Assembly (NCBI GenBank): GCA_016868455.1
Contig: VGGV01000020.1
Location: 1-39,415, forward strand
Direction of reading: 5' to 3'
DNA: 39,415 nt
From: Bacteroidota bacterium
GTDB lineage: Bacteria > Bacteroidota > Bacteroidia > Chitinophagales > Chitinophagaceae
Each line of letters begins with the position of its first letter. Within the stretch, counting starts at the first letter, position 1. Below the pieces are notes generated by a model. The model was given only the letters and a program-made list of their open reading frames with translations, was not told where the DNA came from and did not search any database. Below are positions 12,342-27,556 of the stretch, one piece after another. Position numbers and translations under genes: made by a program.

Positions 12342-13086
12342 ATGGACACACACCTGCACCACGACCTGCCCCACAAGGAAGAACACCTGAAAAGCAGCGA
12401 AGCCCTCCGGGATATTGTAATTGGTATGAGCGACGGCCTTACCGTTCCCTTTGCCCTTGCGGCCGGCCTGAGCGGGGCGGTAAGTTCCACTTCCATTATT
12501 GTGATAGCCGGTATTGCCGAAATAGCGGCCGGATCCATTGCCATGGGTCTGGGTGGTTACCTGGCCGGTAAAACAGAACAGGATCATTATAAAAGCGAAG
12601 AGAAAAGAGAGTATTACGAAGTGGATAACCTGCGGCACCGGGAGATTGAAGAAACCAAAGAATTCTTTGCCGGTATCGGCCTCAGCAAAGAACTGCAGGA
12701 AAAAGCCACTGAAGAAATTGCCCGTGATAAAAAGCAATGGGTGGACTTTATGATGAAATATGAACTGGGGCTTGAAAAACCCGACCCCAAGAGGGCCACC
12801 AAATCTGCATTGAACATCGGGCTTTCCTATATTATTGGCGGCCTGGTTCCGCTCAGCCCTTATTTTTGTTATTGACTCACCGCTGGAAAGTTTAAAAATA
12901 TCTTTGGTTGTTACCCTGGCCTGTCTTTTCTTTTTTCGTTATTTCAAAAGTAAGATCACAGGTATTCATCCCTGGAAGGGGACCCTGCGGGTGATGCTTA
13001 TCGGCGCTGCTGCGGCCGGTGCCGCTTTTGGGGTAGCCAAACTTTTTGAAGGATGCGCAATGCTGAACTATAGCTGCAAACCGTGA
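12342..13086 (+). pseudogene. VIT1/CCC1-family iron/manganese transporter, frameshifted
   Basis: This encodes a membrane transporter of the VIT1/CCC1 family, which moves Fe2+ or Mn2+. Family marks are EALRDIVIGMSDGLTVPFAL, the GIAEIAAGSIAMGLGGYLAG helix pair, the cytoplasmic metal-binding helices (residues about 80-150, rich in E and H), and the C-terminal helices. A run of five T at 12863-12867 breaks the frame just after YIIGGLVPLSPYF. With four T the protein continues VIDSPLESLKISLVV and on to the TGA at 13084, giving a normal-length product. The change is one base in a homopolymer, so a sequencing error is as likely as a real mutation. Confidence 0.88.
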
Positions 13087-24260: not shown

Positions 24261-24773
24261 ATGAACCCACTTGTTGGCATCATCATGGGCAGCGACAGCG
24301 ACCTGCATGTTATGCAGGCGGCTGCAGATATTCTCAGACAGTTTGACATACCGCATGAGGTAACCGTTGTGTCGGCCCACCGCTCCCCGCACCGCATGAT
24401 TGAGTATGCCCAAAAAGCAAAAGAAAGAGGCCTCAAAGTAATTATTGCCGGTGCCGGCGGCGCCGCACACCTTCCCGGCATGGTGGCATCTGTAACTACA
24501 CTGCCGGTAATAGGCGTTCCCATCAAATCATCCAACTCCATTGACGGCTGGGACTCTGTTCTATCCATTCTTCAAATGCCCAACGGGGTACCGGTAGCCA
24601 CTGTCGCATTGAATGCAGCAAAAAATGCAGGTATCCTGGCTGCTGAAATTCTCGGCACGGCCGATGAAAAAATATCCCTTACCGTCTCTCATTACAAAAA
24701 ATCACTGAACAATGAAGTGATTGAAAAGGTGGAAAAGCTGAAGAAAGAAGGATGGGAGAATAAGTTTGACTGA
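24261..24773 (+). CDS. purE: N5-carboxyaminoimidazole ribonucleotide mutase PurE
   Basis: PurE (class I) converts N5-CAIR, the product of PurK, into CAIR. The 170-residue protein has the substrate-binding GIIMGSDSDLHVMQAA at the N-terminus, VVSAHRSPHRMIEYA, and the phosphate-loop region IIAGAGGAAHLPGMVASVTT. PVIGVPIKSSNSIDGWDSVL and MPNGVPVATVALN are typical of the bacterial octameric enzyme. An adjacent purK would be expected in many bacteria; here the two are split by the RND operon but keep the same direction. Confidence 0.96.
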   Translation: MNPLVGIIMGSDSDLHVMQAAADILRQFDIPHEVTVVSAHRSPHRMIEYAQKAKERGLKVIIAGAGGAAHLPGMVASVTTLPVIGVPIKSSNSIDGWDSVLSILQMPNGVPVATVALNAAKNAGILAAEILGTADEKISLTVSHYKKSLNNEVIEKVEKLKKEGWENKFD

Positions 24774-24800
24774 TTTTGTAAATAATATAAAAATTTGTTT

Positions 24801-24840
24801 GAACCACATAGGCACAATAGAAACATAGGTTAACACATAG
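24801..24840 (+). repeat. Left terminal inverted repeat
   Basis: The 40 bases are made of cacatag-type words (accacatagg, aacatagg, acacatag). They match the complement of 25269-25307 with a one-base length difference. Confidence 0.8.
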
Positions 24841-24845
24841 AATAT

Positions 24846-25262
24846 ATGAGATTAACAAAAAGGTATTTAGATGAGTTAACTTATAAAGTTATTGGATGTG
24901 CCATTGAAGTGCATAAACATCTTGGTCCCGGCCTAATAGAAAGTGTTTATGAGAAATGCTTTCTAAAAGAGCTGACCCTTAGAGGCATTGCATTCAAAAA
25001 CCAATTCTGGGTTCCGGTACGATATAAAGAACTTGAATTAGACGCCGAATAACGGCTGAATGTTTTAGTGGAAGACATTTTATGTGTCGAACTTAAGGCA
25101 CTAGAAGGACTCTTGCCGGTACATGAAGCAATTTTGCTTTCTTATATGCAAATGCTTGGGAAACCAAAGGGAATAATAATAAATTTCCATTGTACCAATA
25201 TTTTCAAAGAAGGTCAAAGAACCCTTGTTAATAATTTATTTTCAATGCTGCCTGCCGAATAA
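24846..25262 (+). pseudogene. GxxExxY family protein with an internal stop codon
   Basis: The frame encodes a protein of the GxxExxY family (named for the motif seen here as GPGLIESVY), about 138 residues. The first part reads TYKVIGCAIEVHKHLGPGLI, then ESVYEKCFLKELTLRG. A TAA at 25050-25052 interrupts the conserved LDAEYRLDVLVED-like stretch where a tyrosine codon (TAT/TAC) is expected. After it the same frame continues with RLNVLVEDILCVELKALEGL and ends FSMLPAE. The family has been linked to a PD-(D/E)XK nuclease-like fold, but its role is unknown. A one-base nonsense mutation or sequence error separates this from an intact gene. Confidence 0.85.
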
Positions 25263-25268
25263 GAAAAT

Positions 25269-25307
25269 CTATGTGACAGCCTATGTACCTATCTTCCTAT
25301 GTGGTTC
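25269..25307 (-). repeat. Right terminal inverted repeat
   Basis: The 39 bases consist of cctatgt-type words and are the inverted partner of 24801-24840. The ATG and first eight codons of the downstream lipoprotein gene lie inside it. Confidence 0.8.
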
Positions 25308-26236
25308 ACCCCTTTTTAAGGGCATTTTGTTTGATATGTTGCTTTTTCTTTCTATCCTGCCGTAACATCCAAATACTTCAGGAAGTAAAACCGCTTCCCC
25401 ACTATCCTTCCGCCTCCGGCATTGAAATTCTGAACAACAGAATATATATCATAGGCGATGATGCCAATAACCTGCTGGTGCTTGACAGTAATTTAAATGC
25501 CATTGATTCCATCTCACTGTATTCATTCCCCGAAAAAAGAATACCCAAAGCGGTAAAACCCGACCTGGAAGCGATCGCCGTTTTACCCGGCGGTAAATTA
25601 TTTCTCGCCGGGTCCGGCTCACTGACCCCCTGCCGCAATACCGCCCTGATCATAGATCCTGTCACACGGCAAATAGACAGCATCCGGCTTGATACTTTTT
25701 ATCAGCGCCTTACTTCCAATAGCATTGAGGAATTAAATATAGAAGGCATGACTGTAATATCAGCTGGAATAATCCTCTCCTGCCGCGGCAGTAAAGGTTA
25801 CCCGGTAAATCATTTGATATTTACCCGGCATAATTTCTGGCTGAATCAATCAAAAACAGAAATAAATGTTACCGTGACCGGCGCAAACACTGACAGCACA
25901 TCCTTCAGCGGTATTTCAGGTCTTGGTTATTCGCAAGAAAGCGATATCTTAATCATGACTCTATCCACCGAAGATACCCGTAACAGATTTGATGACGGCA
26001 CTATCGGTAAAAGTTACCTGTGGATAGTGAAGAACATTTCTTCAAAAAGAATGCACAAGACCATTCTTCCCGATAAAATCATAGATCTGGATGCAATGGA
26101 CAGTCGTTTTAAAGGACAAAAGATTGAATCCGTATGCATCATGAAAGAAACCAAAAAACAGTTTCATCTATTACTTGCAGCAGATAATGATAACGGAAGC
26201 AGCACCCTGTTCAGGCTTACCGTGGGTAAAGAATAA
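25283..26236 (+). CDS. Putative secreted lipoprotein, beta-propeller-like
   Basis: A protein of up to 317 residues. A hydrophobic stretch ending in a lipobox (LICCFFFLSCRN, Cys at residue 26) predicts a lipoprotein. The mature part has strand-turn units such as ASGIEILNNRIYIIGDDANN, LEAIAVLPGGKLFLAGSGSL and GISGLGYSQESDILIMTLST, which look like blades of a propeller; it may belong to the DUF6929/SdiA-regulated-like group, but I am not certain. The ATG at 25283 lies in the right repeat of the upstream cassette and gives the odd start MYLSSYVVH. A TTG at 25331, just before ICCFFFLSC, may be the original start. Confidence 0.75.
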   Translation: MYLSSYVVHPFLRAFCLICCFFFLSCRNIQILQEVKPLPHYPSASGIEILNNRIYIIGDDANNLLVLDSNLNAIDSISLYSFPEKRIPKAVKPDLEAIAVLPGGKLFLAGSGSLTPCRNTALIIDPVTRQIDSIRLDTFYQRLTSNSIEELNIEGMTVISAGIILSCRGSKGYPVNHLIFTRHNFWLNQSKTEINVTVTGANTDSTSFSGISGLGYSQESDILIMTLSTEDTRNRFDDGTIGKSYLWIVKNISSKRMHKTILPDKIIDLDAMDSRFKGQKIESVCIMKETKKQFHLLLAADNDNGSSTLFRLTVGKE

Positions 26237-26298: not shown

Positions 26299-27556
26299 AT
26301 GAAAAAGCTGCTCCTGCCGGTCGCTGTTTTTCTTTCAATTGCCTGTTACCAAATTGCTGCACAAGCCCCGCTGAAGTTCAGGGATACCCCCATCAAGGGC
26401 CCTCAATCATTTGCCATTATAGTAGGCATTCCCAAATACAAATATGTGCGGCCGCTGAGCTATGCTGATAAAGACGCTGTACTTTTCAGGGATTTTCTGA
26501 AATCACCCGGCGGCGGAGCGCTGAAGGATGATAATATTTATATGCTGCTGAACGAAGAAGCCCTTGCCTCCGCTTTCTGGACTAAAGGGTTTCAGTGGCT
26601 GCGGGCCAAACAACTGCAAAAAGGCGACAGGCTTTTTATTTACCTCGCCGGGCATGGCGATGCCATTGATGAAGACCAGTATTTCTTTTTAAGCCACGAC
26701 TGCAACCCCGCAGGCGATAAAAACAATTACCTAGTGGGCGGGGCCATTCAGCTGTATAACCTGAAAAAGAAAATTGCCAATGAAACCACCAAAGGTGTGG
26801 AAGTTGTTTTTGTGATGGATGCCTGCCGTTCCAATGAACTGCCGGGCGGGCAACAGGGACTTGATTATCTAAACACGGTCATCTCAGAAAAAAAAGTTGG
26901 CGAGCTCATGATGCTGGCCACTGCAGCCGGCCAGGAATCGCTGGAAGACGCAACTATCGGTAATGGCCACGGCCTTTTTACCTGGTACCTGGTTGACGGG
27001 CTCAGCGGCGTGGCCGACACGGAAGGCGGCCGTGCAGACAGTAAAGTGACATTCGGGAAAATCAAAACTTATGTTGACAAGAATGCCCCATCAGTGGCAC
27101 AGGAACGGTTTAAAAGAAAACAGGACCCTTTCTTCTGCTGCACCGAGTTTAATGACAGGATTGTGAGCCGTGTGGACGCAGCTTATTTGCAAAAATGGCT
27201 TAAAGAAAAAATCGCCGTGGCGGCAACTCATTTGACGGTTTTACACCAACCGGTTATGAAAGATATGCAGCAGATACCAATCTGATTGAAACCTACAACC
27301 GGTTTAACAGGGCCATCAGATCAAATAACCTTACCGGGAGTGCATCAGCAGAAGATTATTACCGGCAGTTAGAAAAAAGGGTTCCCGGAAATCCCCATAC
27401 ACTGGATGCCAAAACAACTTTGGCAGAAGAACTGATCAATGAAGCGGGCTTACCGATATAAAAGATAATGCCGCCACCACACCTTATGCTGTGGCGCTGT
27501 CTTCGCTGAAAAAGAATTTGTTTTCGCTGAATATTTACCTGAGAAAAGGAAGGTGA
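26299..27556 (+). pseudogene. Secreted caspase-family (C14) peptidase, frameshifted
   Basis: The protein has a signal peptide (MKKLLLPVAVFLSIACYQIA) and a caspase-like p20 domain (about residues 35-260). The catalytic dyad is H119 in FIYLAGHGDAID and C176 in FVMDACRSNE. Open frame 1 ends at 27285 after a frameshift: six A at 27206-27211 where seven would give KEKNRRGGNSFDGFTPTGYE. That frame continues with NLIETYNRFNRAIRSNNLTG and is broken again near 27455, where one extra G gives GLPDIKDNAATTPYAVALSS up to TGA at 27554-27556. It then meets the aminotransferase stop with no gap. Related proteins often carry longer C-terminal repeats, so the end may also be truncated. Confidence 0.8.

Follow-up and report, generated by a model that had tools for sequence, protein, structure and literature searches.

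The locus described here raises a simple question: do a GxxExxY gene and the inverted repeats on both sides of it belong together, and if so, what kind of unit do they form? The window, that is the whole stretch of DNA analysed (39,415 nucleotides, from a Bacteroidota bacterium of the Chitinophagaceae), is one entire contig of a genome of 2.64 Mb in 64 contigs. The features in and around the repeats are as follows.

24261..24773, forward strand: purE (TIGR01162), left neighbour of the cassette.
24800..24840, forward strand: left arm, TGAACC and then four iterons (from the sequence, an inverted-repeat search and a gapped arm alignment).
Left-arm iterons: CACATAG at 24805-24811, CACAATAG at 24813-24820, ACATAG at 24823-24828, CACATAG at 24834-24840.
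24846..25262, forward strand: GxxExxY (TIGR04256 / PDDEXK_3) pseudogene, interrupted by TAA at 25050-25052 and with Asn in place of the catalytic Asp.
25269..25308, reverse strand: right arm, the left-arm pattern in reverse complement, ending in GGTTCA.
Right-arm units: CTATGTG at 25269-25275, CTATGT at 25281-25286, CTATC at 25289-25293, CTATGTG at 25297-25303.
25283..26236, forward strand: DUF6929 ORF, right neighbour of the cassette, its called start codon inside the right arm.

The preliminary description had placed the frame within an inverted repeat of about 40 bp, 12 bp of it perfect at the ends, and this was borne out. The outer ends of the arms form a perfect 13-bp inverted repeat (24800-24812 / 25296-25308), and the gapped arm alignment (40 versus 39 nt) reaches a score of 37, the best among 191 control ORFs being 32. 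The matching blocks are ATAG, ACATAG and CACATAG, and each arm has four units, with the ATAG ending in seven of the eight (by eye). Between the arms lies the GxxExxY frame alone, fitted tightly. The inverted repeats of the window are real and chance is ruled out. In the DUF6929 ORF, the N-terminus of which we take to be lipoprotein-like, the right arm supplies the called start codon and the residues that immediately follow (25283-25308), and the same is seen in the genome G008 (locus L041); the repeat arm may have been acquired as the 5' end of this gene. A caspase-like peptidase (PF00656) is encoded at 26299-27285 of the window.

The gene inside these arms is a decayed copy. With the stop read through, the frame matches TIGR04256 at 118.4 bits (cut-off 35), and by this profile match over the curated cut-off it is a member of GxxExxY / PDDEXK_3 (PF13366). 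It is interrupted by the in-frame TAA, and for this reason the listing of window ORFs of at least 80 aa is empty at this frame; moreover, Asn stands where Asp (D69) is invariant across 30 aligned family sequences (by eye). The preliminary description, sound but incomplete, had passed over the stop, and a working gene in the window has to be rejected. The open frame and the full set of catalytic residues (E29, D69, E79xK81) are absent in the window copy; an open frame is present in a second gene of the same genome (G000:C9) and in a relative from a sister species (G015), which is 77% identical and has CACATAG arms. The stop and the exchange of Asp for Asn therefore mean that the cassette is real and the gene inside it dead; within the CACATAG subfamily, the copy in the window is a defunct cassette.

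GxxExxY proteins had been described as having no assigned function. This is not wholly so: Pfam already puts the family in the PD-(D/E)XK nuclease superfamily, and only PDDEXK_3 was over the Pfam cut-off. Folding had been suggested as a check for a PD-(D/E)XK site, and such a fold is indeed predicted for the G000:C9 protein (pLDDT 95.6). The best structural match in the PDB is SSO0001 (4ic1; Foldseek probability 0.99-1.00, TMq 0.49-0.59), which we take to be a Cas4; no Foldseek match of this model reaches E 0.001, and no PDB relatives were found by sequence up to E 10. Residues conserved across 30 sequences are E29, D69, E79-x-K81, Q93 and Y97, and this series (E, D-x9-E-x-K, QxxxY) is presumably that of RecB/Cas4-type PD-(D/E)XK enzymes. 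PADLOC reported Cas4a2 for the G000:C9 protein (E 4e-4) and no match for the window-clade protein. Cas4 proteins have four conserved Cys for an Fe-S cluster; because none of the columns that are invariant or almost so in the 30 sequences is a Cys, there is no sign of that iron-sulphur cluster here.

Pairs of arms flank GxxExxY genes generally. Arms were scored by aligning 250 bp upstream of a gene with the reverse complement of 250 bp downstream. The first set comprised 50 GxxExxY genes with enough flank (one more was too short, and five duplicate loci were dropped) and, as controls, 191 other ORFs in 18-kb stretches. A score of at least 24 was reached by 44/50 genes versus 6/191 controls, and a score of at least 28 by 38/50 versus 1/191. 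The second set was picked on protein similarity without use of the arms, and consisted of the best 80 of 580 named loci by protein alignment together with one viral and one plasmid locus; among the 79 loci with enough flank, 63 scored at least 24, versus 16 of 149 control ORFs. In a third set 24 of 29 scored genes passed, 11 of the 29 being shared with the first set. The arm pair fell below threshold in 6/50, 16/79 and 5/29 genes respectively. Wherever arms were found, they enclose the gene, which occupies the palindrome centre. The proposed cassette, with its arms tied to GxxExxY genes in relatives, is upheld by both comparisons with control ORFs, and the idea is correct in outline. A strict arm-pair pattern, which misses most cassettes (that of the window included) of the 34 stretches searched, gave 14 pairs in their 620,570 bases: 12 were gene-less, one held a GxxExxY gene and one consisted of nested palindromes, so that no other gene was found inside such pairs (reversed control 0).

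The class is not a small one, as had been supposed. The loci of the second set are mostly from Bacteroidota, and also from Chlorobi/Ignavibacteria, Balneolaceae, Planctomycetota, Acidobacteriota and Proteobacteria MAGs; several are MAGs, for which contig binning is a caution. The family occurs in 57 of 97 genomes (relatives together with the genome of the window), a single genome having up to 10 copies, and in 121 of 150 genomes of one sample of the genus Flavobacterium. At least 11 among the 150 family matches listed have an in-frame stop (counted by hand). Cargo of phages or plasmids was considered and rejected, as 0 matches were found in 50,697 phage records and 8 in 72,556 plasmid records (at most 44.3% identity), along with one viral contig. 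As regards orientation, 133 genes were examined and 116 had both neighbours called; 87 of these are co-directional with both and 8 opposite to both, a bias that points to reliance on read-through transcription or to survival that depends on orientation, some of the loci counted being orthologous to one another. At three loci (L165, L143, L133) the outer TAACC of the element, judged by eye, either provides or adjoins the stop codon that ends the upstream gene.

The arms mostly start with AACC or ACC, followed by an iterated unit of about 7 nt, the cores being CACATAG, CACAAAG, CGCAAAG, CACAGAG, CACAGATT, CACGAATT, TGATT and others. The spacing of the iterons, judged by eye, is about 9-12-9 in Flavobacterium hemW cassettes and about 8-8-11 in CACATAG elements. 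These letters diverge together with the protein. The core could be classified in 90 of 107 genes (the other 17 were dropped), and on the protein tree of these 90, AG versus AT core endings need 5 changes versus a shuffled mean of 15.9, and CAC versus CGC among the 73 AG genes 11 versus 24.0, with 0/300 shuffles as low in either case; the division into AAAG, AGAG and ATAG is weaker (16 versus 23.5 changes, 1/300 as low). After 7 of 68 entries had been left out because their arms were weak or their flank too short, 61 genes from 38 genomes remained; in comparisons between genomes, similarity of the proteins correlates with similarity of the arms at a Spearman coefficient of 0.26, some of the pairs perhaps being orthologous by descent. 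Within-genome shuffles of the arms reach this value in 0/2000 cases, and host base composition therefore does not explain the correlation. The arms of the nearest protein neighbour are in the top 10% for 45 of the 60 genes with a near enough neighbour. Homologues without flanks had been named in advance as the finding that would undo the cassette; the idea withstood this test, as among the seven genes at least 54% identical to the G015 protein (this and the window copy included) five have CACATAG arms with a score of at least 28, one has a weak pair (score 18) and one is without arms. CACATAG occurs in the aligned arms of 0/22 other scored genes outside the window clade.

Gene-less arm copies and sites without the gene were found. 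In the window's own genome (G000) the following further copies are present.

G000:C4, 116431-116511: gene-less element with the same core as the window.
G000:C39, about 12830-12923: gene-less element with the same core, and a small palindrome inside.
G000:C3, 40267-40326: gene-less element with the same core, arms facing outward.
G000:C9, 94965-95315: second GxxExxY gene, intact, with arms of other letters and the same form, TTAACCGCAAAG...

Inside-out CACATAG elements, in which back-to-back arms are separated by a short AT-rich spacer, were observed at L305 of this genome and at L310, L311, L313, L319 and L321 of G015, about five in one genome, with L319 incomplete. In 42 genomes of the window's genus the pattern CCACATAGN{1,12}ACATAG gave 54 matches in 12 genomes (reversed control 12), many of them in pairs of arms that are separated by about 80 nt and enclose no gene; G022 has five such pairs. 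Fifty of the 54 fall in genomes where the GxxExxY family was found, while the 18 genus genomes without it hold 4 matches, 0 in an inverted pair, and 3 control matches. In G022, G010, G031, G041 and G008 there are CACATAG matches without a nuclease of the CACATAG clade (best identity at most 48%, none in G008). Five gene-less CACATAG elements fold with z of -3.2 to -5.7, and copies have the iterons in common and not the spacers (by eye).

The tie between palindromes and gene is seen at a larger scale in Flavobacterium, where AACCRCWAAGNNCRCWAAG gave 1254 matches in the 150 genomes, up to 94 per genome, and a single match in the reversed control. Matches are found in 96/121 GxxExxY-bearing genomes (1240 in 448.5 Mb) versus 6/29 GxxExxY-free ones (14 in 87.4 Mb; p = 5.6e-9 for genomes with matches), and, when genomes up to 4.3 Mb are taken, in 62/86 versus 6/29 (p = 1.8e-6). 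Differing cores are perhaps the reason why 25 GxxExxY-bearing genomes have no match. The CACATAG matches without the cognate clade and the AAG arms in the 6/29 GxxExxY-free genomes are either relics or were moved by another agent. In L289 (15431-15769) and the matching stretch of L299, palindromes of different core are nested in each other's centre.

Orthologous sites differ in what they hold. The gap between purE and DUF6929 is 512 nt in the window. Both genes were found on one locus in 15 relatives; in 12 of these the gap, measured to the first aligned residue, is only 46-128 nt and armless, and the remaining three have longer other inserts. The G008 contig begins within a right arm at this same place, the left side being off the contig, which suggests insertion before the split of the two species. 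The Flavobacterium cyclase of the hemW/cyclase site was found in 136 of the 150 genomes, and 70 of these were surveyed with 4 named loci (one duplicate genome), giving 74 loci classed by motif rules. A GxxExxY cassette is present in 20 and a GIY-YIG cassette in 7; gene-less palindromes fill 33 (19 of AAG type, 14 of GAT type), another long insert is found in 7, and the rest are 5 short gaps in which no element was recognised, one gap of Ns and one other short gap. On a quick hemW tree (71 rows) this occupancy needs 32-34 changes, and the starred branches alone force at least 7 GxxExxY, 8 AAG, 7 GAT and 5 GIY-YIG changes. Ten AAG palindromes of one type were aligned at hemW; nine share one orientation and the tenth (L210) is inverted in place. 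Gene-less and gene-bearing AAG palindromes stand at about the same offset in the gap (L238 and L244 versus L141 and L133; by eye). A comparison of G114 with G169 at two more sites, the flanks of which are about 91-96% identical, shows different palindromes at the same place. A clean empty and filled pair with exact ends or a target-site duplication was not found at purE, at hemW or in the two G114/G169 comparisons. The GIY-YIG cassettes of the hemW/cyclase gap (L218, L226, L230, L234, L239, L242, L245) have a GIY-YIG gene, PF01541 being confirmed in the two tested of seven, between arms of the form TTTATGCTGAACTAGTTTCAGCATCT; an arm pair was scored in 6/7, and L239, which gave no ORF under the rule, is unscored.

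Both iterons and gene are under purifying selection in orthologous cassettes. In 12 orthologous hemW cassettes the iteron columns are 95% identical in both arms, compared with 84% and 76% for the spacers and 74% for the UTR; third codon positions are 74% and first and second positions 92% identical. Ten of the frames are intact and two frameshifted, and the median dN/dS among the ten is 0.08. The gene and its arms are therefore kept together. Such strong purifying selection in vertical descent is as compatible with a role for the host as with a selfish one.

The explanation that we consider best, at about even chances of being right, is a palindrome system with a dedicated nuclease, in which DNA binding, cleavage and nuclease-caused spread are the conjectural parts. 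A small Cas4-like PD-(D/E)XK nuclease (GxxExxY) would read the iterated units of its own arms, and the unit of spread would be the palindrome of two iterated arms, one copy of which carries the nuclease gene centrally, many others being gene-less. The nuclease would act in trans on cognate palindromes and most plausibly nick or cut them once they form extruded hairpins on single-stranded DNA; host repair or replication would then copy, invert or re-insert them in intergenic gaps, the nuclease gene being one passenger among the palindromes that it drives. It can be said that the nuclease probably reads the arms and drives the spread and turnover of the palindromes. We infer the binding, cutting and movement; what was observed is that the gene lies inside the arms, that arms and protein diverge together, that gene-less copies go with the gene, that orthologous sites have repeatedly changed their occupant, that one palindrome is inverted in place and that iterons and gene are under selection. 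Several results count against this nuclease model: no clean empty and filled pair among the sites compared, CACATAG matches in five genomes that lack a nuclease of that clade and AAG arms in 6/29 GxxExxY-free genomes, selection that suits a host role equally, arm pairs below threshold in 6/50, 16/79 and 5/29 genes, the moderate size of the protein-arm correlation (0.26), no Foldseek match at E 0.001 or better and no PADLOC match for the window-clade protein.

Homing into palindromes would read the same loci differently: a gene-less palindrome would be an empty target, cut at its centre, into which the gene is copied by double-strand-break repair so that the site is split, the palindromes themselves spreading by other means. 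The constant position of the gene at the palindrome centre fits this, as do the shared offset of gene-less and gene-bearing AAG palindromes in the hemW/cyclase gap, the GIY-YIG cassettes with their own arms in that gap at seven loci and the palindromes nested in one another's centres; furthermore, GIY-YIG and PD-(D/E)XK are both listed among homing-endonuclease families in the available text of PMC3943268. Homing nevertheless leaves unexplained the abundance of gene-less palindromes and their link to the gene, the in-place inversion of L210 and the conservation of iterons after the site has been split, and we regard it as unlikely. A domesticated nuclease serving the host in repair or in self/non-self recognition, with autoregulatory or self-marking arms as its operators or genome-wide binding sites and the palindromes dispersed by another agent, e.g. 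an HUH RAYT transposase, would account for the low dN/dS and the iterons conserved on both sides in vertical descent, for CACATAG matches in genomes without the cognate nuclease, and for the 87 co-directional versus 8 opposite genes, as read-through expression may matter. Its probability is nonetheless low in our judgement, because presence is patchy (57/97 genomes, up to 10 copies), in-frame stops occur in at least 11 among the 150 matches listed, 2 of 12 hemW orthologues are frameshifted and sites turn over rapidly at hemW.

That ordinary intergenic repeats enclose the gene by accident is hardly credible. It is true that some genomes have many more gene-less arms than cassettes, but the excess around GxxExxY genes (44/50 versus 6/191), the co-divergence and the link to gene presence speak against it; chance or ordinary intergenic words are rejected by that excess, by 63/79 versus 16/149 and by 1254 matches versus 1 in the control. 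Returning to the nuclease-driven palindromes, a broader proposal is made tentatively and is rather doubtful: GxxExxY nucleases would drive the dispersal of their own palindromes without a DDE, HUH, serine or tyrosine recombinase or a reverse transcriptase, and the unrelated small GIY-YIG nucleases would independently do likewise, each with a palindrome of its own.

Among known systems, HUH transposases (RAYT) are thought to mobilise REPs. RAYT/REPIN is the closest working parallel, and the present system probably works in a similar way on the basis of a Cas4-like PD-(D/E)XK nuclease. According to the available text of PMC6006769 and PMC3733652, a RAYT enzyme is flanked by palindromes of a family specific to it and persists stably in descent. 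The likeness to the REPtron, as far as that text goes, lies in an enzyme gene with inverted copies of a cognate palindrome family on both sides, which is dispersed in the genome here as well, in the presence of several such families in one genome, every family having an enzyme that is stable in descent, and in dispersed intergenic palindromes that differ in sequence and share their form. The present system does not belong to that class, with no HUH enzyme and no GTAG foot seen: GxxExxY has a PD-(D/E)XK fold in place of HUH-Tyr, its gene sits inside one palindrome, and its arms are iterated behind AACC or similar (aligned arms typically begin AACC or ACC and CNCNNAG, by eye), whereas the RAYT hairpin is GTAG/GTGG-footed. 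The fold match to SSO0001, the conserved E, D-x9-E-x-K and QxxxY and the weak Cas4 profile match bring the protein near Cas4 and RecB; unlike Cas4, it is without conserved Cys, stands alone and is mostly 125-170 aa long. The gene-less units resemble MITEs in being short, dispersed and intergenic, with terminal inverted repeats and hairpin-forming sequence (the five folded elements), but no parent transposase was identified, copies share iterons and not spacers (by eye), and no target duplication was found at the sites compared. With homing endonuclease genes (GIY-YIG, and PD-(D/E)XK such as I-Ssp6803I) GxxExxY has in common a lone small nuclease gene, intergenic and patchy; it differs in having its own iterated arms and many gene-less palindromes in the same genome, and no host-gene target sequence is known for it.

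In the available texts of the literature covered, with subscription journals mostly outside the scope, GxxExxY receives only passing mention. The accessible parts of work on palindromes or MITEs in Bacteroidetes or Flavobacterium, including PMC3733652 and PMC9769881, do not describe the arms, and literature matches to the arm letters, among the matches listed, are chance-like by title and abstract. The class is large and, within this literature, undescribed; it may have been described elsewhere.

With these results a very common nuclease family gains a testable role, and many intergenic palindromes in these bacteria could be explained. There are dozens of natural pairs of nuclease and motif in which the letters differ and the form is kept, and specificity might be readable from the sequence. 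We know of no such mobile system based on the PD-(D/E)XK enzyme class; if the nuclease moves the palindromes, this would be a mobile system resting on an unaccustomed class of enzyme.
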